Source: Macrolepiota albuminosa (taxonomy: Eukaryota; Basidiomycota; Agaricomycetes; Agaricales; Agaricaceae). From it: DNA of 64,000 bases. Location: positions 4,202,183-4,266,182 of the forward strand of contig JAMWFC010000117.1 of the NCBI GenBank assembly GCA_027475525.1. Direction: 5' to 3'. Of the stretch, positions 1-62,533 are shown in pieces. The position numbers and the translations under genes are program-made. The notes below the pieces were generated by a model, which searched no databases, was not told the DNA's origin, and saw nothing but the letters and a program-made list of their open reading frames with translations. How positions within the stretch are numbered: the stretch's first letter is position 1; each line of letters begins with the position of its first letter.

Positions 1-2384
1 TTAGGCGCATCGAGGGTGTGGGCGCGGAGGCGCCTCCAAACTTGGTCGTTGCCGTGATGAAGTTGTTGGAGCGCTGGTACGAAGTTCGCGTCCTTGGCGT
101 CGGCTGGGACAGAGAAATTGAAGTGCGGGAGTGGTGCCGGGCGCGGTACGTCGACAATCGTGGCGCCGACTGGTTAGCGCCATTTTCTCGTTTTGTAAGT
201 GGTTTTAGTCCTTGCCGTGTTGCTAGCTGATTAGTCCCTAGGCGCCTCCTCCCGTCCCGACCATTGAGGACGAATTGGAGGACATCCTCTCTGGCGCATT
301 GCCAATGACGGTAAGCGCTCCCGCGCCTGAGTAAGTATCTCTGATTTTTGATCTCTAACTTAGCTGTGGTCTGATCTGTCTCCCCATAGCAAACAAGAGG
401 TGTTAGCGCCTCTTGCCAATTTGCAGGTGGACGCCGAGATGGCGGCAATTCGCGAGAGCGTGCTAGAAGAGGCCTCCCGTGACGCCAAGGAGAGAACCAA
501 GGCGTTGGAGGAGCGAGAGGTCGCTGGCGATTCCCTGGTTGCTAGCGAGAAGTCGCCAGTTGCCAGGAGGCAGATGCCTGATATGAAGGATTCCCACGCC
601 GGTAGTGCCCAGAGCCCAGCACTGCCGGCAAGCAAATCGGGCTCTCCGGTCAAGCCTGGCAAGACTTTGAAAAAGAAGGTAAGTTTGAGGGTTCTTACCG
701 CTGGCGACTTCTGCTTATCCCACTCTCAGTCTCGTAAGGCTGCCGCCCCTCGTTACACGGTAAGTTCGTTGCGCCAAGGTACTTTCCTTGCTAACCAACC
801 ATTTGACAGGCGCCAACGCAAACTTCCTTTAGCGACGCAGAGCTGAAGGGTTTGTTGGTGGCACGACGAGATGAGGCGGTTTTGGATGGAGGAATGGAGG
901 CGGGGGTGGTCTTGCCGGAGATGAAGGACAAGAAGACGGCAAGTCCGGCGGCAAGACGGGAGTTCAAGGACTCCCAAGGAGCGGTAAGTGTTGTAGCTCT
1001 TCTTACCGCGTCTGTTAACACTTCTGTAGTGCGACAAGTGCTGGGCCGACAACGACCCAGAGGGGTGTTGGTACCCCACCGGTGGCCAGCCCTGTTACCG
1101 GTGCGGGACGCTAAAACGAGCTTGCACTTTGGACGGCGCCAAGAGTCGTGAACGCGGTGGGGCTCCCGACGCGGTAGTGGAGCGGACCTTTAAGCGTGCC
1201 GTCTTGGTCAAGAGAGCGCGGGAGTTCGTTGAGGAGGAGAGGAAGAAGCAGGCCGCTGGCGACGCGGCCACAATCAGCAAGAGTTCCCTGGCGCTGCCGA
1301 CGCGTCAAGGGGACGAATCTGCAACAGTCGGTAACCGTGGCGCCGGAGAGCGCCAAGGGACTACGGTCCCTTTGAAACGACAAGTCTCCTCGCCCGCCAA
1401 AGGGAAGGGCAAGGCTAAGCGCGCGCGCGTAGTGGAGTCTCCCCCCCCTAGAAACGACAAGTCTCCTCGCCCGCCAAAGGGAAGGGCAAGGCTAAGCGCG
1501 CGCGCGTAGTGGAGTCTCCCCCCCCTACCCCCGAGGACGTGGAGATGGAGGATCTGGAGAAAGCGCTTGCCGCTAGTTGCCTACCGCCAAGGGACACCGA
1601 AGCTGGGCCCAGCAAGTTGCTCTCCCCAATCCACCTGAGAGGGGCTTCTCTGCCAACCGCCGACGAAGACGACGCGGTAATGGACCCGCCGCCAAGGGAA
1701 GAGCCCCAAGAGGCGGAACCGGCAGTGGCGACAACAAGGGGAGAAGGAAGCCCCCCGGCAATGGCGGGTGACGAGGACGCGGAGGGGGAGCCAGACGAGA
1801 CCTTGGCGACCCAGCACGAAGGCGACGAGGAGGAGGCCCCCGCCAAGGAGGCAGTAGTGGGAGAAGGTGAGGGAGCGGCAGAAGTTGCCAGGGAGGAGCC
1901 AGAGTGGCGCTGGCTGCCTCCCTACGGTAACGTTGCCCCCTGGGACGTCTCTGACCCCGAGGACGTTGCCGGGTTGGAGCCCAGGCGTCCCGTGGTCGCC
2001 AGGATTAATCCTGCCTGGACCCCTCAGCCGCAGCCAACGGTTACAGGCGACGCGTTCAACTGGCTGGGCCAAGACCTCGTGTACCCGGTGGTGGCACTTA
2101 ACCCGCGGGAGATGCTGGAGAGGTTCTCAAGTAGGGCGGCAACGATGGAGGCAGCAATGGGTCGGGAGCGGGAACGTGTCCGGGGTCAGCTAATGGCCCT
2201 AAGGTTGCGCTACTCCAATCTTGGTCGTAGCCTTAGCGTTCTTCGAGACTACCAGGCGGATTGCCAAGCCGCCATGGATTGGCAGACCGCCAACAACATT
2301 TTGCCTGGCGACCTCCTACCTCTACGCGACTCTTCTTTGCCGGTCTCCGACGACTCGTTGCCGATGGAGGATGATAGTGAGTGA
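1..2384 (+). CDS. Antisense accessory gene of G1: zinc-cluster-like, acidic, coiled C-terminus (5' partial)
   Basis: I do not recognise this protein family. The gene runs opposite to pol and is spliced: GTAAGT-type donors with AG ends are seen near 195-240, 310-363, 680-730, 760-808 and 984-1029. The joined reading frame gives an Ala/Glu/Lys-rich N-terminal part, a cysteine cluster at 1,030-1,131 (CDKC, then single Cys, then CYRC and a final Cys), a basic KGKGKAKRAR stretch that could be a nuclear signal, a long acidic Glu/Asp/Pro middle region, and a helical C-terminus (RERERVRGQLMALRLRYSNL) before the stop at 2,384. A 77-bp direct repeat at 1,374-1,527 breaks the frame; without it the two flanking ORFs join. 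The start lies left of the window. Role inferred only: a nuclear, possibly DNA-binding protein encoded by the transposon. Confidence 0.6.
1030..1131 (+). other. Six-cysteine motif resembling a fungal Zn2Cys6 cluster
   Basis: Spacing read from the exon is C-x2-C-x8-C-x8-C-x2-C-x6-C, with Lys-Arg before the last Cys (CGTLKRAC). The classical Gal4-type cluster is C-x2-C-x6-C-x5-12-C-x2-C-x6-8-C, so only the second spacing is off by two and the basic residues sit in the second half. Zinc binding and DNA binding are inferences. Confidence 0.55.
1374..1527. repeat. 77-bp tandem direct repeat 1
   Basis: Two exact copies (1,374-1,450 and 1,451-1,527). They shift the frame of the antisense gene between its basic and acidic regions. 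Confidence 0.97.
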
Positions 2385-2829
2385 ACGGACCTTAGCGTAG
2401 ATAGGCCGTTTTCTTTTCGTACATATTTTGTTGGCGCCCCGTTTTTTTTTTTTTTTTTTTGATATATTTTTGCTGTTCCCTACCGCGTGGAGGAATTAAG
2501 TCTAGTCTGAGTTAGCGAACCATCACAGGGTAAGTTAAGTAAGGTAACGGGAAGACGAGCGGCAAGCATTTGTTAAAGTAAGTGCCAGCAAGAGGAGAAG
2601 TAGGTGAGGGACTTAGACAAATTTTGAGGAAAAGGGAAACGCTCAGTAGATCATCATAGCGAAAAACCCTTGGCGAGAGTTGCGCAGGGCGCTAAGCGTT
2701 GGCGACACGCTAGCGCTGCGGCTTAACTACGTAAGGAATTGTCTGTGGAATATAGTACAGTAAGTATTGGCAAGAAAGATAAGTAAGGTAAGTAATAGAA
2801 AGAAAGAGCTTATCAATATATAGTCTTTT
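2385..2829. other. Convergent 3' spacer between antisense gene and pol
   Basis: The stretch lies between the two converging stop codons. It contains a run of 19 T at 2,442-2,460 and several CGSYAA/TTRSCG hexamers, but no ORF. It could hold the polyadenylation signals of both transcripts; I see no LTR edge in it. Confidence 0.6.
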
Positions 2830-5800
2830 CTAATCTGGTTCTTCTTCTTCAACTAGAGTCGGTAAGTCATCATCGTCCAGTAATTCTGTTTCTTCAAGTT
2901 CCCTAAGCTTGGCGGTGTCGATATCTAGCGCTTCAAGCGGCAAGTCAATGTGTTCTCTGGCGAGGTATGGCAATAGGCGAAAAGCGGCAACCGGTCGATG
3001 CAGTACTGAACCATCTAATTCACAGAGCACGTAAGCGCCTCCACGGTTACAAGAGATAACTACCAAAGGTCCTAGATAGCGCAGGCGCATTTTCTTGTTG
3101 TATGAAGTTTCGATTTTGGAGTTGCGCATGAGCACTAGCGCGCCCCTCGGGAAGTTGTAATCTTTAATGGTAGCGCTATGCTCGGTCTCGAATCGTAGAG
3201 CTGTTTGGCGACGGGCGCTAAAGACTACCTCGTGGAGTCGCTCTAAATCTTCTTTCCTTCGTTGGAGGTCTATGGCTCGTCTGGCGATCAGGTCGGTAGT
3301 CGCTAAGATGCTGTTGGGTGCTGGCTGAAGGTAGGTCGCTTCTATGATGTCGGCAGGGAGTAAAGGATGGGTGCCAGTAGCCGCGTAATAGGGAGAGCAA
3401 CCCATGCGCTTACGAATGGTAACCCTCTCTGACCAGAACACTGAATACGTTGCCTCACTCCAACGAGACTCGTCGCCATCAACTGCCTTAAAGAGCGCTT
3501 GCCGAACGTCAAAGTGTGGTCTCTCTACCAGGCCATTGGCGCGCTTGTTGTAGCCAGATACTCGAATGTGGTGAATATTGTATTTCTTGGCGAGGTAAGT
3601 TAGCGCTTTGATGATGGGCGCACCGTTATCCGTGACGATTTCTCTTAGCGCTCCCCACCGGCAGATGACGTCTTCAAATAGCCACTTGGCGACCGCCTCG
3701 GTATTTTCTCTTTGAAGCATGCGAAACTCAGGCCAGTGGATTAGCGAGCAACGACCTTGAATGATGTACTTATAGCGACCAGATTTGGGCATATGCATGG
3801 TGTCGACGTAGATTTTGCTGAAGAGGGGAGCTGGCGTTGCAACGGTTGGCGGTATGAGTACTTGGCGTGTTTGTTGAATTTGGCAGAGGTGGCAAGTCCT
3901 GATGTACCAGGCGATGTCGGCACTAGCTTGTGGCCACCAGAATCGTTCTAGCAGAGAAGCTCGGGTAGCGTACAGACCTCTATGACCTAGCTCGTCATGC
4001 ATAGCGCGCAAGACTCGTAAGCGACCTTCTGGCTTGATGATCAGCTTGTGAGCGCCATCTCGATTTCGTCGCCAAAGTCTGTTGTCGGTAAAGAAGAAAT
4101 GGGTAGCATATCGGATAAAAGTAGCGTATTGTTCGTCGGTAAGGTCTGTGGGTCGCTTAAGGTCTTGTAGCCATTGTTCAACTATTAACAGGCGACTGTC
4201 TTCCGCCTTTGCCTTGGCGGATCGGGGAACGGCATCGTAGGTCAGGTTTTTGCTGTCTTCTCTTAGCGACTGGGGTTCCTGTACGATTTTTACGGGAGGC
4301 AAGTCTTGTCCAAGGATGCTTGCCGTGTAGAATGTGAGGGGTGCGCTAAAGGTCTCGGGGCGGTAAGGGACGATGGGATGTAGAAGGATGCTGGCAGGCT
4401 GTTGCCGTCGTAGTAAGGGAATTGGCTGTTGAATGAGGTGCACGAAACCATGTAGTCGGTCGATCCAGTCCTCGAAATTGCTATCAGCCTGTGGGTCCAC
4501 TGCCGGGTCGCCAGGCTGCTGTGGTCGCCTAGAAAGTCCATCTGGTCCGTGGAAAGAGCTCTTGACGTGTACCAACTCAAAGTGAAACATGAGGATGGCG
4601 ACTACCCACCGGTTCATGCTAGCGGATGGCTGGATGTCGGGATTCTGCAGCATGCCTTTGATGTACCTAGCGTCGACTTCAACAATAAGGTTGCGCACGC
4701 CAATCAAATACATCTTTAGCGACCGGAAGGTTTTGAAAAGCCCATAGAGCTCTAGCTTAGGCTGACTGTAGCAAGATTCCCGGTCGTTTAGCGTGATGGA
4801 CCCAAAGCGGTTGTAGCGTCGCTGTTTCCGATTGTCGCTAAGGCACTGGCACAGGAAGTAGCCAACGGCAATGTACGAGGTATCCACCGCCAAGATAACA
4901 GGGTCGGCAGAGGTATAATTGATGGGGACTAGGGGTTTGGCGTCTTGTAGAGCTTTTACTAAGTCTCGTTGTGCGGTAACCTGGTCTGGCCCAAATTCGA
5001 AGGGCTCGTTGGCGCGGGTGAGTCGGTTAAGGGCGTGTGCGCGATGGGCAAAGTTCTTGACGAATATCCTGAGAACGCCAACGGTACCAAGAAAGGCGCG
5101 AACTTCAGATAAGTCGCGGCAAGGACCCCAGCGCTCCAAGAGTGCTAAGCGAGATTCGTCGGGAACGCGTCCGTCGGGAGTGCAGATGTGACCAAGTATT
5201 TTGAACCTTGGCGCGCATAGGAGGAGTTTGTGGCCGCTAAAAGTCCCACCGCTATACTTCATACGTTGGAGAACTCGGTTGAGCAACTGGAAAAAGTCCC
5301 ATAGCGCTAAGCGAATATTGGGGTTCTCGGGATGGGTTGCCGGTAAGCCGTTTACGAGTCGCCAGTCTTTGGGGCCTTTGACGCCAATGTTGTCGATGAA
5401 GCTAAGGACGTTATGCGGTATCTCAGGTTGGAGGATGAAAGTGATGTCGTCATGGAATATGGGGACTGAGTTTGTCCAGCCCATCGGCAAGGTAACTAGG
5501 CGGAGTGCGCCAAACGGAGTTTGAAACGTAGTGAGGTCGCGGGAAGAAGGGTGGATTAAGCGTTCGTCGTAGCCAACATAGAGGTCAAGGGTGGCGCCAC
5601 AAATGCGCCCGGCAAAGGACTCGGCAACGTGATCAGGGAAAGGCGGTACGCCAGAGTGTCGTATGGTGACTCTATTCAGTGGTTCAAGACTGTGGACTAT
5701 GCGTAGATTGCCATTCTTTTTGAGGACACAGAACCAACGGGAGCGGTAAGAACTATTGGAGGGTTCGTAGACGCCAGCCTGTATCTTGGTTTCTTTTTGA

Positions 5801-6170
5801 GGACACAGAACCAACGGGAGCGGTAAGAACTATTGGAGGGTTCGTAGACGCCAGCCTGTATCTTGGTCCTAATAATCTGGCAGACCTCGGCTTCGATTCC
5901 AGGCGGTAACGGTCGGTTGTGCTCAGTCCACGGTACGTGAGGGATGGTCGGGATTACGACAGGCGGGAAGAAATCTGTGCGGAGGCTGCCGCGTTCCGAG
6001 TCCTCCCAAGCAAAGGCTTTGTCTTGCTTAGCGACAAGATCGGTAAGGACGTTCAACTCATCTTTGGTCAAAAATCCTGTGTCGTGCTCCTTGGCGAACT
6101 GCTGCTGGCGTTCCTCGGTAAAACGTCCTGTGGGCTGAAAGGGTGGCGGATTCGGTGATAAGGCCGGCAT
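2830..6170 (-). CDS. G1 pol: reverse transcriptase, RNase H, integrase (frame broken by a 77-bp repeat)
   Basis: The long ORF (5,814-2,830, 994 residues) starts in the RT fingers, and the preceding RT residues are in the overlapping ORF up to 6,170. RT motifs visible are RSRWFCVLKKNGNLRIVHSL, FGALRLVTLPMGWTNS and the catalytic box FIDNIGVKGP at residues 139-148, where FIDD would be expected. RNase H follows (AVDTSYIAVGYFLCQ). The integrase has the H-x-H-C-C zinc domain (DELGHRGLYATR to CHLCQ) and the catalytic triad in VDTMHM, VTDNGAP and NGLVERPHFD. The C-terminus is acidic and I see no chromodomain. The 77-bp repeat at 5,714-5,867 is the only thing separating the two ORFs. With Asn in the RT box this copy is probably unable to polymerise unless the base call is wrong. 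Confidence 0.9.
5714..5867. repeat. 77-bp tandem direct repeat 2
   Basis: Exact copies at 5,714-5,790 and 5,791-5,867, inside the RT fingers of G1. Confidence 0.97.
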
Positions 6171-6327
6171 GTCGGCAAGAGGGTCGCCAATGATCTGGCG
6201 CTTGATTCTAAAAGTCTCGGGAGAGTGCGTAGCGACGGGTTTTGTTTTAAGCGCAACTGGCTTATATTTCTTTTTAACTTGAACCCCTTTCCTTTTAGGA
6301 GCGTTAGCCTGGTTATAAACAGAGGTG

Positions 6328-6481
6328 GAAAGGGGAACTGTAGCCTGAGGAGCGGCAAGTCCAAGAACGGCAGGAGACGAGGCTCCGGGAAGGGTAGTGA
6401 GATAGAAAGGGGAACTGTAGCCTGAGGAGCGGCAAGTCCAAGAACGGCAGGAGACGAGGCTCCGGGAAGGGTAGTGAGATA
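6328..6481. repeat. 77-bp tandem direct repeat 3
   Basis: Exact copies offset by 77 in the linker between the protease and RT of G1 (6,171-6,705). The linker is Pro/Leu-rich in the open minus-strand frames and has no recognisable domain. Confidence 0.97.
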
Positions 6482-6705
6482 CGTATTGGTAGACGCAATA
6501 TTTTGAAATGATTCAGAAGTGGTAAGGTACAAGTAGGCAAGAGAGGAGTCGGTAATGTTTTGATTTTTCTGGGAAGTCTCGGCGTCGGTAGCGGTAGAGG
6601 AAAGCAAAACTTCATCGTCAAGACAAGCGGTAGATATAATATTTACAAGACCAGTTGAATGGTCATATTCCAGCGTTAGCGCCACATCTCCGTGATCGTC
6701 GCCAA

Positions 6706-9366
6706 TCACCTCCTCGATGGTCTGTGAAAACACCTATGGGGTCGTTCGTTGGCGTGCTGGTCAGTAAACTCCGGTGGCTTAGCGAGGGCGCCTTTTTGTT
6801 GTCCCCTAGGGAACGTTGGCACCGTTCGTCGGATTCCGGAATTAGGGTCGCTAATTGTGAGGGTCGTTTCCTCGTCAGTAACTGTCTTGACGACTGATCG
6901 CGCCAAGACGTCGAAGGGTCTGCCGAGTAGTAAGTCGTATGCCGGTGATCGCAAAATGTGTATCTGAAGATAAAAGGTGATGTCGCCAAGGGTGCATGGC
7001 ACATTCTTGGCGAGGCCGAGGGATCTGTCTACCGTACCGTTAGCGCTCTGCATGTTTAGTATAACGGTAGGGTCGTAAATAAGGCCTAGATCGTTAGCGA
7101 CTTCAGCTGCCATAGAAATGATTTGAGACCCGCTATCCACAATTGCCTCTACCTCGTGCTTGTTGTCTACGGTTAGCGCTACTGAGCGAATAGCGTGCGA
7201 TTCTTGAGCGACGGTAAGGATGGCGGGGTCCTCTCCATGGTCCACAGACCTAAGGTAGGTCTCCACTGGGTCCACAGAGGTGGCGTTAGCGATGGAGTCG
7301 GCAAGAGGTTCATCGGTGTCGGGAGAGTCGATGGTAACAGAGAAACCAGGAAGCGCATCGTCGAGTTCATCAACCTCGGCAACAGCTGTCGCCAAGGGTC
7401 GTCGAGGAGTAACTGCTGTCTTGACCTGGTTGCGGACGTCGGGAGCAATACTACAAAGTTCTTCTACTGACAAGGTGACGGCGGTTTTCATGATACGGTT
7501 AAAAACGTGGTTAGATTTCTCTATGTCGAAAATTGGCGCGGTAGGTCGGTAGCCACCCTCAGGACGTTTCTCGGGAGCGGCAAAGTTTCGTTGTGCGGGA
7601 GCGTGATAACGGTCGGGAATCCCTGAATAGGGATGGAGAGGCGGCAAAGGCGGTTCGGGAGCGGTAGCGGACGACGATGGTTCTGGAGTGGCAGCAGGGG
7701 CAGTAGCAGGCGGTGCGGCAGGAGCAGGCGTCGGTAATTTGCTAGCGGGAGGCATCGGCTTATATCCTTTAAGAGGCTGTTTAGGCTGCTTAACTTCAAC
7801 CCCATCAAAAACCTGATTCTTAAGCGAATCCAACTCCTGTTGCAGCTTAGCGATTCGCTCTTCCCGCGAGAAGGTAGGGCGGTCGCCAACGCTGTCGAAG
7901 TGTAAGACCTCGTGGATCATTTGCTGCTGAGTTGCCTGGTCAGGGTCGGGGTTAGCGTTGCCGGAAAGCGTGCCGGTAACGATCTGTCCTGGGTTGCGCC
8001 TATGCCACTCATCAACTCGCTCCTGGAAGGACTTCTTGTCTGGGTAGTTGGGAATGATGGCGCCAGTGGTGAGGACTATCTTGCCGTCGATAGCCCGTCG
8101 AATTCTCCCTTGCCGAATGTAGTTCTCTAAAGTCGTGCAGCGTCCTCTAGTCATGGTGTGGCCAATTTCCCCACAGAAGTGGCAAGGGCCAGGCGCGGGT
8201 ACGTTAGCGGGTCGGTTAGTGAGGTTGGTGGTGATCATGGTTTCAATACGCGTCATAGCGGAAGCAACAGCCGCGGTAATAGCAGCATTGAGTTCTTCTT
8301 TCTTAACGAAGTCGGCAACAGGAGGCGGGATGGGAATGATACCGTTAGTTCGCTCAGGTGGTGGGCTCGTCCTAGCACGTTGCAGTCCAACGCCAGTGTC
8401 CGTTCCCTTGAGAACCCATTTACCGGCTTCAAAGACGTCGGCAACGTTATAGGGCTCGTCAGGGTGATGGGCCTGATGAACTATCTCTAGGCGACGAGCA
8501 ATACGAGTCCACAGAGACGTCGGGATGCCTTGCTGAAATAGGCGACGTTCCTCGTTAATATAGAGCTTGCCGTTCTGCAGAAGCCACCTAGCGATTTTCT
8601 GGAACTCGCGGTAATACGTAGAGAACGCGCCAAGAGATGATGTGCCACTGTCGAATGATTCCTGTACTAGTTTCTGGAGCTCGTTTACCGTGTATCGGGT
8701 AGCCTCCTCTGCGCCAGGGTACAGCTGGATTACTGCCGTCTTCCAGTCCTCGTATGAAGCGCCTTGAGCTGGAGCTGGCGGGGCGGCAGGAACAAAGGCA
8801 GCTGGATTACTGCCATCTTCCAGTCCTCGTATGAAGCGCCTTGAGCTGGAGCTGGCGGGGCGGCAGGAACAAAGGTGGCAAACTCGGTAAGACCTGTCCA
8901 CATCTCTGCCGTGTCATATGACACGTATCTGATTCCTGTACTAGTTTCTGGAGCTCGTTTACCGTGTATCGGGTAGCCTCCTCTGCGCCAGGGTACAGCT
9001 GGATTACTGCCGTCTTCCAGTCCTCATATGAAGCGCCTCCGTGTATCGGGTAGCCTCCTCTGCGCCAGGGTACAGCTGGATTACTGCCGTCTTCCAGTCC
9101 TCATATGAAGCGCCTTGAGCTGGAGCTGGCGGGGCGGCAGGAACAAAGGCGGCAAACTCGGTAAGACCTGTCCACGTCTCTGCCGTGTCATATGACACGT
9201 ATCTTGCCGCATACTCCTTCATCTGCGTGTGGTCGGTAATGTTACAATCCCTGAATAAATACTCCAACTCCTTAAAATACTGGGAGAGCTCCCGTGGCTT
9301 GGTCTCGTCCCATTTCGGTGCCGAGAAGTGGTTGCGTGGCGGCATGCGTTGGACTTGTTGTTCCAT
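6706..9366 (-). CDS. G1 gag and retropepsin (N-terminal part rearranged)
   Basis: The capsid-like start is at 9,366 (MEQQVQRMPPRNHFSAPKWD, then RELSQYFKELEYLFRDC). The main ORF (8,901-6,706) continues with helical gag sequence and an atypical zinc knuckle CHFCGEIGHTMTRGRC, where the last spacing is longer than in the usual CX2CX4HX4C. A Pro/Ala-rich linker and then an aspartic protease follow: VDSGSQIISMAAEVANDLGL near 7,070-7,130 and the second conserved part DLLLGRPFDVL near 6,910-6,940. The gag between 8,660 and 9,180 contains a repeated block plus two 77-bp repeats, so the true N-terminal half cannot be read reliably here. Confidence 0.8.
8722..8875. repeat. 77-bp tandem direct repeat 4 (one mismatch)
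   Basis: Copies offset by 77 in the gag of G1, with a G/A difference near 8,737/8,814. It lies within the larger rearranged block 8,660-9,180. Confidence 0.93.
8962..9115. repeat. 77-bp tandem direct repeat 5
   Basis: Exact copies offset by 77, again in the gag of G1, shifting the gag frame. Confidence 0.96.
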
Positions 9367-9728
9367 GGCGACGGTGGTAACGAGTTCGGTTAGCGGTAGT
9401 GGGGAAGGGATTCTAGAGATTGGCGACGGGGTAAGAGAAATGGCGAATTGAGAAAGCGGTGTTAAAGGAGTGATGGGAGTGACTGATTGCGGTAAGGCAA
9501 AGGGCGACGCTAAGGGGTCGTCGGCACTATAATCGAGGGAATGCGGGAAGAGATCAGGAAAAGCGTCTACAGTGGCGTTCTGTAGTTCCTGGGCTAGAGA
9601 AAGACCCGGTAAGGCACCAGGTGGTTGTGGGGTTGATGGGTGGGAAGGAGCTATGCCTTCTGCCGACTGGTCTAGCAGGCGGCGCCTACGCTGGAGACGG
9701 GTTTCTGGCGGAATTCTGCCCTAGAGAA

Positions 9729-9746
9729 CCCTCGCGGTGGGCTCCA
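9729..9746 (-). other. Candidate primer-binding site of G1
   Basis: Read on the minus strand, the inferred LTR ends in GTCATCA, then three bases, then TGGAGCCCACCGCGAGGG. A TGG start just inside an LTR suits a site complementary to a tRNA 3'-CCA end. I could not match it confidently to one tRNA. Confidence 0.4.
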
Positions 9747-9749
9747 ATT

Positions 9750-10696
9750 TGATGACGCCCAAAGTTTGGTCAGTAACAAATGTAACAAAAGTGTTACCGT
9801 ACCAAGAGTGTGCGTTGGGCGCGCTAAAAGTAATATGAGGAGTCCCAGGCAGGTCCCAGAGAACGCGTCTGTGAAAAAGGGTAAAAGTCGGTAACGGGGT
9901 CGGCAAGTGTCAAGCGCTAAGGTAAAGCGCCTAAGGAAAATGCGGTAAGTGAACACGGCAATGTGAGCGGCAAGAGCACGATATGCTTAGCGAAATCTAA
10001 GCGTCGATAATGCCTGCCGTAGTTGCAAGGCGCGAGTATGTCGAGTATTGGCGAACGTCTGCAACTGCCGATGAGTTTGACGTTGCCGACCGTAGCGTAA
10101 ATGAGCTCTTGAGCGTAAGGGAGACTGAAGTAAAGGGGGAAACTCTGGTCTATTCGTTTCTTGTCCTATGTACAAGTCGGTAAGTACTTTTATACTACAA
10201 TGAGTTCGCCGTCGCCAGTGGCTAATGACGCCAGAGTGCAGTAAACTGGAAAATTTCAAAGGGGTAGCTCCAACGGTTTCAGATCCCTACCGCCCATTCA
10301 AGAGCCTTAGCGATGCCAGGCGACAGATCGCGAAGCTAAACCATCACTCCATCACCCTTCTGTCCGTCAGAGCACCTAAGCGGTGTCAGGCGCCAAATTG
10401 AGGCGCTAAGCGATGTCAGACGCCAAGGTCAAACGCCAAGCTGTCCATCAGTTTTTGATAGATCATCAAGCTTCTCGCTAAGCGCTGTCGTCAGTGACTG
10501 ATGCCATCTGTCAGTTGTCATTCCTGCTGCCGTCGGCGCTATCATTGATCGGATCTGCTTCTTGCCGTGCGTGGCCGTCGGGAATGGCTTAAAATGGGTA
10601 GAACGCGTGCGCTAAGTTCGGAACGAGTGCGGCAAGGTTTCCGGAGCCGGTGCCGAGCCTGCCGTTGATGCGCCTAACCTGTATAGGGTCCTATCA
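9750..10696 (-). repeat. Inferred 5' LTR of G1 (947 bp)
   Basis: On the minus strand it starts TGATAGGACCCTATACAGG at 10,696 and ends GTCATCA at 9,750. The outer edge is placed where the G2 RT reading frame (KIDLR) stops making sense. CGSYAA hexamers are frequent up to about 10,630. There is no partner LTR in the window to confirm the limits. Confidence 0.55.
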
Positions 10697-11170
10697 GCGG
10701 AGGTCGATCTTTATGTAAACCTTGGCACTGCGGAGTCGATCGACTAGATTGCCAATGAGCGGGAGCGGGTAGCGGTTCTTCTTGGTGATTTTATTGAGTC
10801 CTCGGTAGTCAACGCAGAGTCGGAGCGAGCCGTCCTTCTTCTTGGCGAATAGAACTGGGGCTCCGGCGGCGGAGGCGGAGGGTCAGATGAATCCCTTACC
10901 AAGCATTTCGTCGAGATAGTCCTTGAGGGCCCGGAGTTTGACCTCCTACATGTTGTACACTTTGCCAAAAGGGGGGGGCGGCTCCTTCCTTGAGGTCGAT
11001 GGTATGGTCATAGGGGCGGTGAGGGGGAATCTCCTTGGCATCTCCTTCGGAGAATACATCAGCAGACTCATGATACTCTGGGGGAACTACTTCTCGGAGG
11101 ATTTGCTCCTTGGTTTTCTTTTCTGGGGGAATTGCGTCCCCTCGTAGATGTTCTTCCAGGAGAGAAGGCG
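10697..11170 (-). pseudogene. G2 reverse transcriptase, N-terminal fragment
   Basis: In pieces the minus strand reads EYHESADVFSEGDAKEIPPH, HRPYDHTIDLKEGAAPP and then [20 protein letters not shown] with [16 protein letters not shown], ending in KIDLR at 10,697. These are the conserved opening blocks of chromovirus-like gypsy RT. The frame changes at a run of eight G (10,971-10,978), and the domain is cut before the catalytic box by the G1 insertion. Confidence 0.88.
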
Positions 11171-11379
11171 AGGTGTGTAGCTGAAACGTGGGAGTTCCAT
11201 CCTTCATGAGGCAGGCGAAGGGGGCGGCCCCAATGATCCTAATGTTGAGTGTGTTCGGGTCAATTGGGGTCGCAGATGCATCGGCCAGAGTGGGTGTGAT
11301 GTGTGTCTGAGACCGGCCAGGGTAGTTCGGCCCTTTGTACTTGTTCTGAGGAATGTTTGGGGGTTGATCAGGGGCCTTG

Positions 11380-12330
11380 CGGTCTCGGACGGGCGTGGGG
11401 GGCGTGGCAGTCGTCCTGGGGGTGTTGGGCGTCGGGTTGCTTTCTAGGGCCCGGAGGTGCACGGCGGTCGAGGAGTGGTCTTTGGGTCCTGGGAAGGTCA
11501 TGGTGAGCGTCCTCCAATCGATGTTGGGGTTCGTGTCACGCAGCCAGGGTAGTCCCAGCACCATCGGGGTCGATTTGTGAAGTCACGTGACCAGGAAGTT
11601 GGAGGTGAACTCGTAGTCATTGTCCAGGGTCACGTGTTCCGAGTGAGACCTCTGAATGGGGCCGGAGGAGGAGGAGGTGCCGTCGAGGCGTTGCAGGCAG
11701 AGGGGCTGGTCGAGGGAGTCGTGGGGGAGGTCGAGGGCGTCGCTGATGAAAACTCCGGTGGCTCCGCTGTCAATGAGGGCCGATATTGGTCCCGGGGCGC
11801 TGTCCAGCCTGGCATTGATGATAAAGGACCGGGACGAGCGGGACTGGAGTCCGGGGGGTGGTGGGGGCCCGTCCTTCGGGGTAGGATTCGGAGAGTGAGG
11901 GATGTCGAAGGGGAGCTGCTGGTTGTCGGGCGTCGGGTCCCGGGTCAGACGAAGGGTAAGATGTCGCCAATAGATGCGGGGGTTGGTGTCTTGGAGCCAC
12001 GGGAGCCCTAGGACCAGGGGTGTGGAAGGGTGGAGTTTGGTTATCAACATCCAGAGGGTGTGAGTCTGTCCGTTGGCGAAAGCCCTAGGACCAGGGGTGT
12101 GGAAGGGTGGAGTTTGGTTATCAACATCCAGAGGGTGTGAGTCTGTCCGTTGGCGAAAGTAACAGGCATACGCACAAAGTGATTGATGTCCCCCGCTGTA
12201 GAGGCGTCTCTGTCAAAGAGGCAGAGCCATACCGGGACCGGGAGTCACTGAGCGGGTTCCGGGGCAAAGGTAGACCATGCTTCATTGATGAAGTTGTCAG
12301 TGGCGCCACTGTCAACGAGGGTGTTGAGGG
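11380..12330 (-). CDS. G2 tandem duplicated retropepsin domains
   Basis: Two complete-looking protease units follow each other. Unit 1 (about 12,320 to 11,950) has VDSGATDNFIN and the closing block LVLGLPWLQDTNPRIYW. Unit 2 (about 11,850 to 11,470) has ALIDSGATGVFIS and MVLGLPWLRDTNPNIDW. Each therefore has its own catalytic DSGA and its own hydrophobic C-terminal block, both ahead of RT. Retropepsins normally work as homodimers of one unit per polyprotein. A TGA between FLVT and LHKSTP near 11,580 fits a CGA to TGA change; the parallel position in unit 1 reads LITKLHPSTP. A 77-bp repeat falls inside unit 1. Confidence 0.75.
12004..12159. repeat. 77-bp tandem direct repeat 6
   Basis: The match with offset 77 begins at 12,004 and runs 79 bases. 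It splits protease unit 1 of G2. Confidence 0.96.
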
Positions 12331-12339
12331 GGGTTCCGG

Positions 12340-13688
12340 AGGGGGTGAGGCAGGTTTTGAGGAGAAGAGAGTGCGAGGAGTGGGAGGGTAGGTAAGCCGT
12401 GAGGGTGTCCTGTATGAGTGTCGTGGAGCGAAGATGTGAGACTGGGGCAGAGAAGACGTCGGGGTTGATTCCGCGATTTAGGGCGTCTTCCAGGTCTAAA
12501 TCGCCGGGTCGTTTTCCGAATACTCATAGATGGCGTCCTCCTCTTTGAAGGTCCAGGTGGCACGTCCCATGACCTGTCGTTGGGGGCACTCGGAGATAAA
12601 ATGGTCTTTCTCACCACAGAGTATGCAGACACCCTCCCTTCTCCGTCGTTCCTGCACATCCCTCGGGACCTCAATCCAGGGTCGCCCCTTTTTCAAGAGC
12701 CGGTTGGCCTGGAGGGCTTCTTCATCCCATTTGTCAGTGAAGTCGGGGTCTTCAGAGTCTTCCGGGGGTTCCTTGGGGTCTGGCGCGTCGCCTGGGTCGT
12801 TGGCGGCCACGGTGGCGTTGAGTTGGGCCTGGGGGCGGGCACCGCTGCCAGGGTTAGTATTGGGCGAGCCGCGACTCACTGGGGGTCGGCCACCAGGGAA
12901 CGCAGGGGGACCGGAGTTCCGGATTTGGGGTTGGGGGTTTTGCCGGAGAGCCATGGGGGTCCTCCCCTAGGGTTCCAGGGGGGTCGAGAGTTCGAGTACT
13001 CGCTGCGATCTTCCCAGTAGCGTTGGTCGATCTGCATGACGAGGGCCTTGTATCCGTCATAGGAGGATTGTTTCGGGGCGAGTCGGAGAATGTCCTTGAT
13101 GCGTTGTGGCAGGGCATGGCAGAGGGCATACCAGAGGGCGCTGTAATTCCAGCCTGTCTCGTAAGCTTCCTTCTCAAAACGTACGATGAAGGTGGTGAAG
13201 CGTTCTTCAGAGCGCATCCAGAGGTTGAAGAGGTTGTCCTTGGCCTCGGCCATGGTGTCGTAGATCCCGAACTTCCCGGAGAACTCGTCAACAAAGGCTT
13301 GCCAGTGAGCGAGTGCTGGGTTGTTGGGGTCGAACTGGATGAGGGCCGTGTAGTGGTCGAAGGCGATCCCCTGGAGGTACGAGGCGGCAAAGGCCACTCG
13401 GGAGCTGTCAACCTGAAACGTGAGTGGCTTCACCTGAAATGTATTAAGACACTGAGTGAGGAATATACGCCATTTTCGGGGGTCCCGGCCCGTGAATGCG
13501 TCAGGCTTTTGAATGTCCAGACATTCTTCGTGGGCGAGGGCATCGCAAGCGTCATCCGGTCCAGTAGCGTTGCAGGGAGGGGGGCCGGCATTGTAGTAGT
13601 AGTAGTAATGGTTACCCCCCCTCCTTGTGGAGGAAAGGCGCTGAGGGCAGGACCCACCCGCCTGGAGGGCCTCCTCCGGGTGGCTCAC
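12340..13688 (-). CDS. G2 gag: capsid and CCHC zinc knuckle
   Basis: The minus strand encodes a typical gypsy retrotrans_gag segment (KPDAFTGRDPRKWRIFLTQC, later NLFNLWMRSEERFTTFIVRF and RFEKEAYETGWNYSALWYAL). A canonical knuckle CILCGEKDHFISEC follows near 12,600, with CX2CX4HX4C spacing. This is the structural protein that packages the RNA. The DNA shows a short GTA repeat at 13,593-13,607, which codes for a tyrosine run in an alternate segment near the N-terminus. Small frame changes occur between the gag parts, so splicing or decay is possible. Confidence 0.82.
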
Positions 13689-15256
13689 CTAGAGGTCCGC
13701 GCCTGGGGGGTCCATTGTCCCAGGGGGGTTCGTTCCTGCTGGGGGGAGGCCTGGGTCTCCACGCAGGGGGTGGCGGAGGTGGGGGACCTGGGGGTTGTCC
13801 TCGAGGCTCAGCCGGTAGTGGCAGAGGCGGTCGGGGAGGGTTTGGTGGTATTGGGTCGATCTGAGGGGGGCCAGGTGCCGGGCTGGATGCCGGGTTGCAT
13901 GGGAGACGTTCAACCCAGGAAGGTCGCGCTTGCATTGGAGGCCGTGGAGGGTTCTGCAGATCGAAGTGGGGTGGGGGGTCACGGCGAAAGTTGGGTTCTG
14001 GAGGGGGCAGGGCTGACATAGGGGGCGGTACCGGGGCGGGTGTGGGCGCAGGACGTGGTTCGTTGTTGCCACACGTGAGCTCGTCGATGTAGCACAGTGT
14101 GTCGTCCGTGCTAGGGGTGTCCGTGTGGGGTCTGCCAGGGGTTGGGCATTGTCCATTTGCGGGAGGGGTTCCAGGGGTCTCTGGGGCTGTCCCCAGGTCT
14201 CGAAGGTGCTAGGAATAGAGTTAGCCCTACGGCGAGTTGACAAGCCTACCGTGCGGGCCGTGGGCTGATCAAATAGCTCTCCTGTCGGATTAAGGGACCG
14301 TAGTATGGCCGAGGCGTTTTGTTGCTCTTCCTGTTGTCGTTGCTCCGGAGTGGGGACCGCAGGGGTTGCTGGGGCCAGTTCTGGTGGTTTCCGCTGGATG
14401 TGAATCGAGCGGCCTGGGTCTGCGGGGTCGTTGAGGGGTTGGGGGGAGGGGGATGCATGGACTTCATCGAGCAGTTGTTGCAACTCTTCACGGAGGATCG
14501 TGTTGCGCCTATACTTTACCATAGTCTGCTCCGGGAGTTCTCCTCGCATGAGGTGATCCCCGAATTCGACCAAGCAGTGGGCCCATTCCTCCGGAGTGCC
14601 TGCGAAGTTGTCGTGTCCGAGTTCCGTGAGTAGCGCCCTTGCCCGTTGAGTGAAGTCCTCCAGCGAGATCCTGAGCGAGCGGAGCACTTCGTCCCATTGC
14701 CATTCGTAGTCCTCGAGCCGTCATTGTCCCATCGGCGAGGGTGGAGTCCAAGCGGGTGGGGCGGCGGTTGGGTAGTGTCGAGGGGGATAGTTGTAGTGGA
14801 GAGGACCCCGGGATTGGGGGGCAGGACGCTGGTAACCATAGTAGGGGGTGGGTGCAAAGGGGCCCTCGCTAGGGGGTACCGGGCGAGGTCCACTGGGGAC
14901 TGGTGGTGTCTCCGGTAGTCCTGCGGGAATGCTCTGGTACGAGGGGACTTCCACGGGTCGTGCCATGGCTAAGTTGGGCGGAGGGGCCCAGCTGGCTGAG
15001 GGCCCCAGATTGTAGAGAGATGGGTCAGGGGCCCAGTGGCGGTGGAGGTATTGGGGTTCGGGGCCCAGCTGGCTGAGGGCCCCAGATTGTAGAGAGATGG
15101 GTCAGGGGCCCAGTGGCGGTGGAGGTATTGGGGTTCATATGGGAGGGGTGGGTAGGCAGGGCGGGGGGTCTGTGCGGGGTAGTGATCAGAGACCGGGCGC
15201 CCGTAAGGGTTGGTCTGGTAGCCCATGGGGTAGTAGGTGTGAGTATATGTAGCCAT
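13689..15256 (-). CDS. G2 gag N-terminal region, Pro/Tyr-rich
   Basis: The first ATG is at 15,256 (MATYTHTYYPMGYQTNPYG). The region is rich in Pro, Tyr and Gln and then turns helical (SLEDFTQRARALLTELGHDN, EEWAHCLVEFGDHLMRGELP). It ends in a TAG directly followed by GTGAGC, so an intron junction with the capsid segment is possible. No catalytic domain is seen. The 77-bp repeat at 14,983-15,136 interrupts the Pro/Tyr-rich part. Confidence 0.65.
14983..15136. repeat. 77-bp tandem direct repeat 7
   Basis: Exact copies at 14,983-15,059 and 15,060-15,136 in the G2 gag N-terminus. Confidence 0.97.
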
Positions 15257-17984: not shown

Positions 17985-18955
17985 TGCTGTACCAGCAGTC
18001 AGGGACACAACATGCACCAGAAGTCAAAATAAACATTTAATTATGGGCTGAAAACTGTAAGCCTCCTGGTAGCAGTCTCAACAAATTATATCTCCAAAAA
18101 CACCCCAATAAATACACAGACAGTACAGAACAAAGGGCAGGGACCAGCTCAAGCTATCAACTCAACAATAGTCCAACCACTGTTATGGGGAGGGGAAGCA
18201 TGGGAGCTGGCAGAGGTGACAAAAGGGGATCAAATTGTGATGATCTAGATCAAGATCTGATCTGACAATGCCCAATTTGATATGACTGAAAGAGGAAAGG
18301 GAAAGAAGCATGGAGGGATGTCAAAAGAGATGAATAGAATGGTGGCACATGCATTGAATGGAGGAAGGGAGGGATGAATGGAATGGTGGCACTGATGTCA
18401 AAAGAGATGAATAGAATGGTGGCACATGCATTGAATGGAGGAAGGGAGGGATGAATGGAATGGTGGCACTAAAACATGCATTGAATGGAGGAAGGAAGAG
18501 ATGAATGGAATGGTGGCACTGAAACATGCATCACCAAAATGGAAAATGGAACAACAAATTAGGTCAGGAATGCTGGGAGGTCAAGAGCAAAAAGTCATGT
18601 GATCTGGTGGTCTGTGCACTGGAAAATTAGTATAAATAGTCCAAGTAGAGTAGAGAATAGACAGGCAATTGATAGGCAAAGGCTCAGTGGTTCCCAGGGA
18701 GTGAATCACCTAGGCTAGAGTTTATTGAGCACCTCTTCTTGGAAGTCTATTGGAAAACAAAGGCTCGGTAGTTCCCAGGGAGTGAACTGCTTAGGCTGGA
18801 GTTGACTGAGAACCTTCTACTGCCCACCAGAGTATTTGATATTCTGAGAAGCACCCAATACACCAAGTTTATCATCAAGCAACAGTGTGGATTAGAGGGA
18901 ACTTTCTGAGTTACCAATAAGCCCCAGAACTACAGTAATACTTGCCCCCAAGTAC
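17985..18955 (-). repeat. LTR-like repeat R2, copy 1, inside G3 (limits approximate)
   Basis: About 1 kb without coding potential separates RNase H from integrase of G3. Segments of it recur at about 62,900-63,660: GAAGTCAAAATAAAC, the AAAACTRTAAGCCTCY block, and the region around the GTATAARTAG box with the following TAGGCTRRAG-like part. Orientation and ends are uncertain; a solo LTR is the simplest reading. Confidence 0.55.
18317..18470. repeat. 77-bp tandem direct repeat 8
   Basis: Exact copies offset by 77 in R2, next to further imperfect repeats of the GAATGGTGGCAC type up to 18,530. Confidence 0.96.
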
Positions 18956-18959
18956 TACA

Positions 18960-20465
18960 GCACCGGCAGGGGAATCTAAAGACAGTGGCATGAAAGCATG
19001 TACAGGAAGAAAAAAGAAGGATATACCTGGCGCAGAGACCAGCAGGCCAGAAACTTTGAGAGAATTTGTGGCACGAATGACAAAACATTTCGTGCTGAAG
19101 AAACCTCAGCAACAAAAGGAGGGCGAGGATGGTGAACAACAAAAACTCACCATTCGAATTCCAGCACGTAAGTGTAATAACAACATGACGTCAAACCCAC
19201 AAGGTCAAGCGTTAGCCAAAAAAACAGGATAAACCAAACAAAGACCTTGAGCAGGCACGGGAAAAATTATTATCAGAACGATCACGTAAACTAAAAGAAC
19301 TAACTGAACCGTTGGAACCGGTATCACTGACTGAAAGGCTGGCCAGAGGGCAAGAACCAATTGACCTTCTGGAGAGTATCCGGGACAAATATTCAGAAGA
19401 CCCGGTACTAGCACCTATAATAGCGAAACCGCGTGAATACAAAAACTTTGAATTTACTGAGGATAAGCTCTTATACCTTAATACGGATGATAAACGCATG
19501 CTGTGCATACCTTCCATAATAGTATCCGGCCGAAACATACGAGAGATTGTGATATCAGAAGCACATTCAATGCTGGCCCATTTGGGCGCACGAAAAACAT
19601 TAACATATCTAAGAGACCTAGTTTGGTGGAAAAATATGAGTCGAGATGTGCATGCATTCTGCAAAACATGTGTTATCTGTGCGAGAAGTAAAGCATCAAA
19701 CCACAAGCCTTATGGCTTGCTTAACCCTCTACCAGTACCCACGTCACCTTGGGAAGTAATCGGCATTGACTTCGTTGGACCTTTGCCTGAATCAAAAGAC
19801 AGAGACTCATCATACAACTCACTCACAGTAATTATCGATCACCTAACAGGAATGATACACCTAGTACCCAGCTGCACAAACTATATGGCAAAGAACATAG
19901 CTGAACTAATTTTTGCTGAAGTCTACAAACTACACGGGCTACCAAAAGCGATAGTCAGTGACTGTGACTCGTATTTTACCAGTATTTTCTGGGCTCACCT
20001 CCATGCCCTGATAGGCACTCAACTTAAGCTATCAAGTTCGTATCACCCTGAAACAGATGGGGCAACCGAAAGGGCTAACCAAACAATAATACAGATGATT
20101 TGTCAATGTGTCAGTACGACACAAAAGGATTGGGTATCTAAGATTCCAGCTGTTGAGTTCACAGTTAATAGTGCTAGATCTGAAAGCACTGGATACTCAC
20201 CTTTCTTTCTCAATTACGGTTGTCTGCCATGCACAATGATATGGAATTCTGCTACCCAAACCGAATACCCTGGTGTCCATGTTTTTGCCCAACAATTAAA
20301 GATGGTAATCATGGTGGTGCATGATTGTATACTGGCAGCACGCATAAAACAAACCCAAAATGCCAACCGGAAATGCATACCAGCACCTTTCAAAGAAGGA
20401 GAATTTGTCTACGTGTCAACAGAGAACATGACCTTTCCTAAAGGTCTAGCACGTAAGCTGATCCC
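18960..20465 (+). pseudogene. G3 integrase
   Basis: The H-H-C-C zinc domain is present (HSMLAHLGARKTLTYLRDLV, then CKTCVICARSK). The catalytic core has all three acidic residues, in GIDFVGPLPES, VSDCDSYF and ETDGATERANQ. The downstream LARKLIP block normally leads to a GPYKI-type beta barrel and chromodomain, but the sequence switches into R1 at 20,466. The main ORF runs from 19,312; the upstream part (18,942-19,232) is Lys/Glu-rich linker. Confidence 0.88.
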
Positions 20466-20983
20466 TGTCAGGGGACTCCTCATTCCTTTCTTCTTTCACT
20501 CTTTATTTCTTCACTCTCCTTTCATTCACTTCCTTACTTCTTCTATCATTCTCTCATTTTGCTGTTACTACTTTTTCAACACTATCTGTTAGTACTATTC
20601 TCAACCTTTGAGGTGCTCTGGTTCTTTAGCTATCACTTAGACAAGTGTGGGCCTTTCAGCACCGCTCCAGGCTGCTTAGATAAGCTGGAGTTTGCCTTTC
20701 TGACTTCTAAAGTCCGGAGTTTTCCTTCCTTGTTTGCACACTTGTTTGGTTAGTCAATTTTCGAGTTTTTAAGGTTTTGTTGTACTGTACAGTTGTTTCC
20801 CATGCTTCAGAGGCCCCAGAAGCGTCCAACCTGGCATAGGGAATCCCCAGACTTGTTCTCTTTGGATCTCCCTCTGCCAGGTGAGTAGCTACCTTGATAT
20901 TGTCAGTATATATTCTAATACACTTTGGATCTCCCTCTGCCAGCTGTGTGACTGAGCCACAGCCTCTAGAGGTCGCCCTTACA
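20466..20983 (-). repeat. LTR-like repeat R1, copy 1 (518 bp)
   Basis: On the minus strand it begins TGTAAGGGCGACC and ends GGAGTCCCCTGACA. A second full copy is at 61,953-62,469 and a truncated one at 39,747-39,876. This copy separates G3 from the Helitron without a shared flank, so the junction arose by recombination or deletion rather than a simple insertion. Confidence 0.7.
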
Positions 20984-23900
20984 GATATTCAGCATGCATG
21001 TTGAATTCAAAGATGTGCCAGCAAGCCTCAGGAGCAGAAATGTATCTGGCATCCAAGTGTTCCTTGATTTCATTCCTCTCCTCCCTAGCAATCTCCAAAG
21101 TTGTCCTATCATGGCCCTTGTAGATGTACTTGTGAATGTATTTGATTGCATCCACTGAAGCACAGACTTCCACATTGATATGACATTGGAATTTGGCTGA
21201 GAGATATGGATTGTATGGGACAACATTACGATTGTCATAACGACAACCATGCTTTTCAAAAAAGCGGCCATTGTTAGGTCTGGCATATTGGGGATAGCCA
21301 TCATCACCATACTGTGTAGCTTCCTGAAATTCCTTGGGATATCTCTTGGAACATTTGCCATCTACCATGCACTTGGCATTGGGAAAATCTGCTCCACATG
21401 GACCATATTGGTAGTAACAACCTAATAACAAAGGTCAGTCACTGCATTGATAATTCAAGCAAAGCCAATACCTGATACAATTGAGGCTGAGTCACTGGAT
21501 CAGGAATTTGAGCAGAAACAATAGTGTCCACATGAGCTGCATCTTTGATCTTGTCATGATGATGGAAAAAGATCAAGATATGTATATGTGGAAGTCCCCT
21601 CTTTTGAAATTCAATGGTATGGACAGATGCCACACATTTTCCAAATAGACCATCTTTTATGTCCTTCAAAAGAGCATTTTTCTTGAGTTCAAATACTCTG
21701 GCAACAATATCTGGACGGTCAGAAGCTGTTTGCCTCTTTCCATTAACCATAGGTTCTTTTAGCAGAGCCTCTTCTATTTCAGGCCACTTTGGATTGGCAG
21801 TCATGGTGATGAAGAGATCTGGTTTATGGAAATGTCTGCAAATAGCCATAGAGTCCTGGAATAGTTGCTGCATGTGTCGTTCACTTCCAACATGAGAAGA
21901 AGGAAGGACCACCCATCGGCCTTGTCTGTGTAAGTCTTCATCTCCAGTAGCTGCATTGACCACTCCTTGATAGACTTCAGCCCTAATCTTCTTTTGATTC
22001 TGCCTGACCCAGTTGAGCTTTGATTGTTCTATTGATGCCCATGCATCCACAACATATTGCTGGAACAGTCTGCTACTCCAAAGCAATGCAGCATTGGCTT
22101 CCAAAGCCCTCTGCTGCAGCCTATATGCATAATATGCAGTTTGGCTAACCTTTTTGGCTCTTTGTTCTCCTGCTGGTCCAAATTGAGATTGAATATTGGT
22201 GTGAAATCCAGGTTCTCCAGTTGGAAATATGACAGTATAGTGCAAGGGAGTATAATAGGGATGCAAATGGCTGATTCGCTTCAATTGACCTCCATGCAGA
22301 TGCAGGACTATGTCACGGTGATCTGATCGTTCTTCAGAACCATCTCCTGGTATAATTGCAGCAACTCCTTCCTGTTCATTAGGGTTGTTATAGCGTTGAT
22401 GGTCTCCAAAGTCAGCTCTAAGTTGAACAGAAAGCCTTTGTGGTTGGCCTTCAGGTACTTCTGTCATAATCTGCTTTGCAAGCTTGTATAAGCCAATAAA
22501 GGGATTGACTCTATGAAGCATATCCTGCAAAGAAGCCATTATCTGAGGATCCAATCTAGGATTGCTTCCTTGACGAAAAGCCAATTGTTGATTGTGATCG
22601 TAGAAGTAGAGTTGTGCATACACAGGATGATTGCCTTCAGTTGGAAGCAAAGCACCTGTCAGATGATGGAGCTCTCCATTGATCCTAAAGCTGTATGGTC
22701 CAGGAGCATTGGTAATTGCATGGTCAATCTTGACTCCCAGAGATGTAAATGCAAAGGCTGCATTGTATTGGCAAATAGATGCTTTGAAAGCATCAGAAAG
22801 AGCATGATGGCCTTGGAGTAAGCCAAGCAGTTCTGGTGGAGCGTCTGCAAGTCTGGGCAAATCAATCTGCCCTTGTAAACAGCACATGCCAAACTTGGGA
22901 TTATATAGGGTAGATCTAGACAGCTTTTCATCATCAAAATGTAGAGCATGACAGTGTGGACATGCAACATCCATAGAACCAAGATAATGTGCTGAGGGTT
23001 CATCTATATAAGGCTGTCTTCCTCTTGGAAGAGCATTTCTGCCTTGAATATGATCAACCCTTTGTAGAATAGGAGGTGCTGGTAGATTTTGCTGCCTGTT
23101 ATCTCCAGGTGGATCCACATACTCCAATTCCTCCTCCATATTTTCAGCAGGATCATTCCTAGGATCATCTAGTGGATTTGGATCAATCTCATTGTCTATG
23201 GGATGCTCCAAATACTCCAAAGGATTCTGAAGCATCTCATCAAAAGCTGCATGGATATTTTCTAACCCATGAGGATCTAAATCATTAAAATCCTCTTCAA
23301 GATCAGCTAAATGTTGCTGTTCCCAGTCTTGCAAGATCCTTTCAGCTCTAGCCTCATTCAAAGGCCTATGTTCAGGGTTGAGATCTATATGCTGTTGACT
23401 TTTGTTAGTCAAAGCAGCTTATAAAATAAAAGGTGTGTTTATCTCACCTCTGGCACTGGTTGTTGTAAAGCAGCCAATCCTTGCTGTTGTGTTCTCTGCT
23501 CTTCAGCCCTTATCCTTTGTACTTCAGCTAATGCCTGCTCTTCAGCTATAGCAATATTTCTGAGCTGTTGTTGCTCATGCAATACTGCTAATGCCTGTTG
23601 TTGCCTTTGCCTCTCCTCTTCTTCAGCCAAAGCAATATGTCTGAGCCGTTGCTGCTCTTGCAATACTGCTAGTGCCTGCCATTGTCTATCCTGCTCCTCA
23701 GCTGCAGCAATGTGCCTCAACCTTTGTTGGTCTTGCAATGCTGCTAATGTTTGTGGAGCAACCTGCTGATTAATTTGTCTTCCTCTATTCCCAAGTGCAG
23801 GTGGCAATGGTAATGGCATTGTGAAGTTTGGCAAAGCAGGCATTCTAGGTATAGGATTCCATAAAGGAGCATCCCAACCTTCAGGCAAATGAGTTTCAGG

Positions 23901-62469: not shown

Positions 62470-62533
62470 CTAATAGAGTTCTGTCAACAAACTCAACATC
62501 TGATGTTGATTCTAGCTGGAGGATTCAAAAAAA

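Follow-up and report, generated by a model that had tools for sequence, protein, structure and literature searches.

A selected, element-saturating hexamer and a candidate antisense reader in a Gypsy-type retrotransposon of Macrolepiota albuminosa

A stretch of 64,000 nucleotides of the Macrolepiota albuminosa genome (assembly GCA_027475525.1, contig JAMWFC010000117.1, positions 4,202,183 to 4,266,182 of the forward strand; hereafter the window) opens inside a long terminal repeat (LTR) retrotransposon, G1, which is filled with one short word, CGSYAA and its complement TTRSCG, and bears an extra gene antisense to gag-pol. We find that this word is a selected signal at the level of DNA. G1 is a complete element of the Ty3/Gypsy type, 11.9 kb long, read on the minus strand and reaching left beyond the window start. 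Judged from its sequence it has the parts of such an element, namely an LTR pair, gag, protease, reverse transcriptase (RT) with RNase H, and integrase. Its frames match the Pfam models gag-asp_proteas, RT_RNaseH and Integrase_H2C2; the scan of the given frames gave no hit to a model for the RT core, and the order, with RNase H ahead of integrase, fits Ty3. The second LTR, at about -1208 to -260 in window coordinates, is 94.1% identical to the one in Table 1 by self-BLAST. Part of gag lies in a further frame at 9004-9366, with 77-bp duplications between both gag frames. When a 2.6-kb piece of pol DNA was used as query, 40 of 938 candidates were scored and all 40 matched, four at 99-100% (the window copy included) and 36 at 94-95%; between G1 copies, pol has a nonsynonymous divergence (dN) of about 0.01 and a synonymous divergence (dS) of 0.13-0.22.

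The antisense gene runs on the plus strand from -90 to 2384, between pol and the 3' LTR, and consists of six exons separated by five introns, each 46-59 bases long. Its exons can be read without stops as far as a 77-bp duplication, and three splice choices at exon 2/3 allow this. The last exon (the zinc exon) starts with a six-cysteine domain. Basic residues lie in the second half of this domain, and a long helix is predicted after it. Comparison of six G1 copies over the first 43 codons of the exon gives dN 0-0.056, with dS 0.26-0.87 in six pairs and saturated in nine of 15; towards the C terminus, identity is 47-80% along most of the sequence. The nine saturated pairs are ones whose pol dS is only 0.13-0.22, and the antisense module seems to be older than pol or to have been exchanged via recombination. 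In a search with the G1 zinc exon, 150 of 780 candidates were scored; 139 are free of stops, and the remaining 11 contain TGA stops only, which fits CpG decay of CGA.

Table 1. Features of G1 within the window (window coordinates)
Feature	Position	Strand	Basis and remarks
Dispersed CGSYAA/TTRSCG array	49..10635	.	motif count; 173 sites in 1-10,696, first at 49, last at 10,630
Antisense gene, exon 1	1..194	+	exon reading; start at -90, left of the window
Antisense gene, exon 2	242..330	+	exon reading; 3' end uncertain, 310 or 330
Antisense gene, exon 3	390..678	+	exon reading; 5' end uncertain, 364, 390 or 427
Antisense gene, exon 4	730..759	+	exon reading
Antisense gene, exon 5	810..983	+	exon reading
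Antisense gene, exon 6	1030..2384	+	exon reading; frame broken by 77-bp duplication at 1368-1521
Zinc-cluster-like domain, C-x2-C-x8-C-x8-C-x2-C-x6-C, candidate motif reader	1030..1125	+	cysteine pattern
Spacer, antisense gene to pol	2385..2829	.	motif count; 7 sites
pol frame: RNase H part of RT, integrase zinc domain	2830..5814	-	Pfam
gag and aspartic protease frame	6706..8901	-	Pfam, open reading frames
LTR, 947 bp, upstream of gag	9750..10696	-	self-BLAST

Dinucleotide composition predicts 24.4 occurrences of the word for the G1 part of the window (1-10,696), far fewer than the number counted there (Table 1). An earlier note on this DNA had put the spacing at about 50-80 bases and the chance rate at one per 512; the measured spacing is one per 62 bases, the uniform rate gives about 21 sites, and the excess is 7-8 fold. 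All 11 positions that the note gave for 6,901-7,500 are exact. A further 18 sites lie left of the window, and the whole element holds 191 against 27.3 expected, each of the four variants occurring 44-50 times at about sevenfold enrichment. Single-base swaps outside the pattern have ratios of 0.3-1.8, except for G at position 6 (3.0), and CGSYAA was the best pattern for G1 in a scan of IUPAC hexamers with at most two twofold positions. A longer motif was rejected, as the flanks hold little information, chiefly a weak G after the motif. The density is 13-22 per kb across the LTRs, antisense gene, spacer and gag-pol, all of which the note had named, and the fading that it placed near the outer LTR edge is found as well, the last site starting 66 bases inside the edge at 10,696. 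Outside both edges there are 0-2 sites per 500 bases in the stretches read. The 64-kb window has 210 sites in all, with a density of 12-18 per kb over positions 1-11,000 that drops to 0-4 per kb in the rest; G2, a second Gypsy-like element at 10896-14687, is without a saturating word and holds, at 12,001-12,600, exactly the two sites counted earlier. Pairs of sites 6-8 bp apart are scarce (one against 9.0 in G1, none against 10.1 in C1:645k, and 0-1 against 4.0-5.1 in five pol loci), with some excess at 12-14 bp. We do not rely on a reading by fixed spacing or steric exclusion, as the scarcity is missing in four of the five antisense loci L047-L051 and the sites of the sister family F2, described below, are too few.

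In pol, 47 sites compare with 8.0 in 2,000 shuffles preserving protein and codons (maximum 17), and in gag 35 compare with 7.9; where dinucleotides were also kept (2,000 shuffles), the figures rise to 15.3 (maximum 25) for pol and 12.9 (maximum 21) for gag. These shuffles refute composition and codon bias, and it is hardly credible that these, or an artefact of assembly, underlie the array. The assembly does contain tandem duplications: among 28 with a period of 40-160 bp, in nine stretches (134 kb), 27 have a period of exactly 77 bp, and G1, F2 and other parts of the window all contain them. Yet they contribute few sites, and each of 30 G1 loci of 5.6 kb has 78-98. Within the window the 77-bp duplications stand at 1367, 5711, 6321, 8720, 8959, 11999, 14980, 18312, 24350 and 26187 and at nine more positions; they are also present in loci L010, L041, L043 and L052, in all kinds of sequence. 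Untrimmed overlaps of a graph assembly with k=77 would leave tandem duplications of this length, and the repeats are probably artefacts of that kind, which would explain the frame breaks in gag-pol and in the antisense gene. Frame breaks at these duplications are not to be taken as biology, and the copies may be mosaics.

The word is also conserved between copies. We compared 30 pol-centred loci, including the window copy (5,239 of 7,038 alignment columns kept; pairs below 3% divergence dropped), and found that CGSYAA ranks first among 165 NNSYNN families both in number (83 per copy) and in retention (0.869; median 0.677). All seven antisense regions have 51-55 sites per 3.4 kb although they are only 70-99% alike, and retention there again ranks first (0.668 against a median of 0.395, of 131; six regions, the near-duplicate L046 being excluded). 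Fourfold-degenerate sites were examined at 440 positions of pol in 27 copies (L012-L014 dropped), with controls matched for base and CpG. The 49 sites at fixed positions of CGSYAA have a nucleotide diversity (pi) of 0.036 against 0.145 in matched sites, about fourfold less, and none of 5,000 resamples was as low; the 11 sites at S or Y positions do not differ from their controls (P = 0.32), and the Y position stays variable, with 18 of its 24 changes being C>T. When 148 patterns were ordered by the same measure, the 15 lowest, which are those listed, were all versions of CGxxAA or CGxxAG; CGSYAA came 19th, with 49 sites, the most of any pattern shown. Since the shuffles are exceeded, retention is top-ranked and fixed fourfold sites vary little, we conclude that CGSYAA is a selected DNA-level signal. 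The earlier note had suggested selection on DNA from the way in which the hexamers cut across coding contexts; its proposed checks by shuffling, by conservation at synonymous positions and by density in the other stretches and elements examined, none of which had such enrichment, all turned out in favour of this.

CGSYAA might be produced or spared, to no function, by some process of mutation or copying that only this element has, and a word that is mutationally cold could by itself give both high density and low variability. In the decayed copy C1:726k, however, the two LTRs share 11 motifs of 13 and 18 (mean 0.71, against 0.80 for all hexamers), whereas 15 live pairs at 3-7% divergence retain 0.908 of motifs and 0.726 of hexamers, although this contrast has small numbers and sets LTR against pol. 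Coldness of the word is unlikely because the motifs of the decayed copy are not spared and those of live pairs are; F2, in the same genome, also has another word, and we regard this process as quite improbable. The LTR pair of the window copy, with 16 motifs shared of 17 and 20 (hexamers 0.733), resembles the live pairs; a possible reason is descent of the two LTRs from different parents, or mixing in the assembly.

A signal in RNA, for packaging, translation or splicing, would fit the strand bias of the sites (112 on the plus strand and 79 on the minus strand over the entire element, P = 0.02) and the overlap of CGGTAAG with splice donors of the antisense gene. Both strands are used along the element, however, as had been claimed, the density is even over LTRs, spacer and genes, and CGGCAA and CGCCAA are no splice signals; this explanation we consider very improbable.

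A sister family, F2 (C1:621797-635469), has LTRs of 1,071 bp that are 99.6% identical to each other and a pol that is 82% identical to that of G1 in protein. Its antisense gene lies in the same place, and 28 of 43 residues of the zinc exon (at C1:633044, minus strand) are identical to G1; 150 of 787 candidates for this exon were scored, and five have stops (three TGA, two TAG). The best word of F2 in the IUPAC hexamer scan is GCGCTA, with 69 occurrences against 9.9 expected, and it is more closely packed in the LTRs (about 10 per kb). CGGTAA, CGGCAA and CGCCAA occur about as often as expected (10, 7 and 12 against 7.1, 7.8 and 7.8), and CGCTAA, which has five bases in common with GCGCTA, occurs 35 times against 9.3. 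Thus, in these two families, divergence of the zinc exon goes with a change of word. Within the compared pol stretch the contrast is modest, because GCGCTA occurs 24 times in F2 and 14 times in G1. Inheritance site by site was rejected, as F2 has the motif at only nine of 64 alignable G1 pol sites. No third family was found in the stretches read. L053 turned out to be a relative of F2, with about 3 kb at 77-81% identity and an LTR-type remainder at 97-98%; it keeps the F2 word, which occurs 21 times in its 4.5 kb against 3.0 expected, some 11 of these in the more diverged 3 kb. In four aligned pieces of two F2 relatives (4,229 columns, 88.6% identical), 36 of 42 GCGCTA sites are retained (0.857, against an all-hexamer mean of 0.547), which places the word 17th of 128 CG hexamers and is only suggestive. 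Selection on GCGCTA in F2 is likely, though less firmly shown than for the G1 word.

Six control stretches, among them a Ty3-like element without the zinc exon, have no comparable word: their best z scores are 4.6-6.1, against 21.9 for G1 and 12.9 for F2 on the same scale, which uses halved counts and gives lower values than the main hexamer scan. Between F2 and a G1 copy, at C1:636800-644500, lies a Ty3-like element whose similarity to G1 pol by tblastn is weak (E 8e-7); it has neither motif and no zinc exon. These comparisons bear on a host explanation, in which a DNA-binding factor serving transcription, nuclear position or replication reads the motif and has nothing to do with the antisense gene. 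The antisense protein matched no known domain, and its binding to the motif is a prediction, both of which leave room for such a factor; yet the two related families share one genome, hence one set of host factors, and still differ in their words, and the control stretches have none. We consider a host reader unlikely.

An element-encoded reader is backed indirectly by the conserved six-cysteine domain and by the sister family with its diverged domain and different word. Fungal transcription factors of the Zn2Cys6 type such as Gal4 have six cysteines in CxxC pairs with the spacing C-x2-C-x6-C-x5-12-C-x2-C-x6-8-C, a basic half and a long helix behind, and read CG-rich triplets. The G1 domain resembles them in the number and CxxC pairing of its cysteines, in having one basic half and in its predicted helix; it differs in that the gap between the second and third cysteines is 8 instead of 6 (the sole differing interval), that the basic half is the second, and that PF00172 is unmatched. 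Each family would thus bear a dense array of candidate binding sites over its full length, and the gene between pol and the 3' LTR would encode a zinc-cluster-like protein reading its family's motif. That motif array and antisense reader belong together in this way is the explanation towards which we lean overall. The protein probably binds its own family's motif and coats that family's copies, to judge from the domain and the paired words. Such coating may, more tentatively, keep the copies free of CpG methylation and silencing, and host DNA would be spared, being without dense sites.

Several results weigh against this account and call for caution. Families compared number two, and the joint change of domain and motif therefore counts as one event. 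The retention of GCGCTA and the strand bias of CGSYAA, given above, do not help it, and the C-terminal antisense exon has a weaker excess of CGSYAA (14 against 6.4, shuffle maximum 12). No Pfam family came near the cut-off for the antisense gene or its zinc domain; for PF00172 no match to the domain was listed up to E 10, although HMMER filters drop most matches above 0.1. Among solved structures no relevant relative of the domain was found by sequence, and a fold search with a single-sequence model (predicted local distance difference test, pLDDT, 70.7; short helices at 2-6 and 29-33, long helix at 48-81) gave no significant PDB match. A search of viral contigs for relatives yielded 21 stretches that fitted a pattern, none of them confirmed.

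Bacterial DNA uptake sequences are short selected words that lie on both strands and across coding sequence, genome-wide at about one per kb, and serve DNA import. They are like the G1 word in being dispersed through coding sequence on both strands and unlike it in their whole-genome scope and import role. The closest precedent, by analogy, is the VANC proteins, which counter silencing of VANDAL DNA transposons in Arabidopsis. They bind short family-specific motifs of 8-9 bp that stand in tandem repeats outside coding sequence, with VANC21 binding and loss of methylation shown experimentally (Hosaka 2017, PMC5735166; Sasaki 2023, PMC10398659). In both systems a short motif recurs along the element, a further gene of the element binds it or, in G1, is suspected to, and related families differ in motif. 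Many motif copies, and family-specific motifs with diverged proteins in two families, are found here as well, whereas the tandem non-coding placement is not: G1 is a fungal LTR retrotransposon with a motif dispersed also through coding sequence, and its putative reader is a zinc-cluster-like protein. Retand Gypsy elements of plants have antisense open reading frames (ORFs) in the same position and direction as the G1 gene, with predicted DNA binding and a TRP28 domain; the part of that report drawn on here calls the function of the TRP28 protein unknown and names no target motif (PMC11963269). Pfam matches of parts of the G1 antisense gene include no TRP28 domain. Fungal DNA transposons encode TET/JBP dioxygenases thought to counter their own methylation, and none is reported in a retrotransposon (PMC12730594); the likeness lies in a fungal element that may counter its own methylation, the difference in the use of an enzyme in place of a motif reader.

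Our open-access literature search found no report of a saturating motif in an LTR retrotransposon. It is about an even call that fungal LTR retrotransposons evolved self-recognition independently of VANDALs, with an antisense zinc-cluster protein coating the whole element through a family-specific word at synonymous sites, and word and protein diverging together as families split, the antisense DNA-binding ORFs of plant Gypsy elements being possibly alike. In any case the G1 gene gives antisense ORFs of LTR retrotransposons a candidate target, with a sister family as built-in control of specificity. If the reading is true, whole-element self-marking would not be peculiar to plant DNA transposons, a DNA code could overwrite coding sequence at the density seen in G1, and matched pairs of protein and word could serve as tools to direct proteins to selected regions of chromatin.

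Mutation at CpG bears on whether coating would protect from silencing. In live copies, C>T at CpG outside motifs is about 0.041 (695 of 1,395 changes, rate 0.082) against about 0.051 at other C, and in nine of nine pol loci compared with the window C>T is lower at CpG than in every other context; in the decayed copy C1:726k it is 0.147 at CpG against 0.063-0.073. In antisense-region loci, by contrast, CpG is the highest C>T context in three of five (L047, L048 and L049, the last with 0.152). The pol of live copies thus looks free of CpG decay, and its spectra fit low CpG methylation; the antisense region is not clearly so, which lowers the probability of anti-silencing. Low decay in pol could also come from recent activity, and the copies compared, being those closest to the window, could contribute to it; these points, like the antisense spectra, count on the other side. 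A protein that coated the element to restrain it, by copy-number control, self-repression or steering of insertions away from or towards existing copies, would lead one to expect this same anatomy and selected motif, and a gene antisense to gag-pol could bring transcription conflict. Against this, at least 150 matching zinc exons per family argue against tight restraint and the CpG-intact pol against silencing, and we hold self-restraint to be improbable. Elsewhere in the window, at 18000-24000, 39000-41000 and 57000-64000, the ratio of observed to expected CpG is 0-0.35 in 14 of 15 one-kb bins, with 0.75 in 19001-20000; older DNA here has undergone strong CpG decay, like that left by methylation or by mutation at CpG resembling repeat-induced point mutation.

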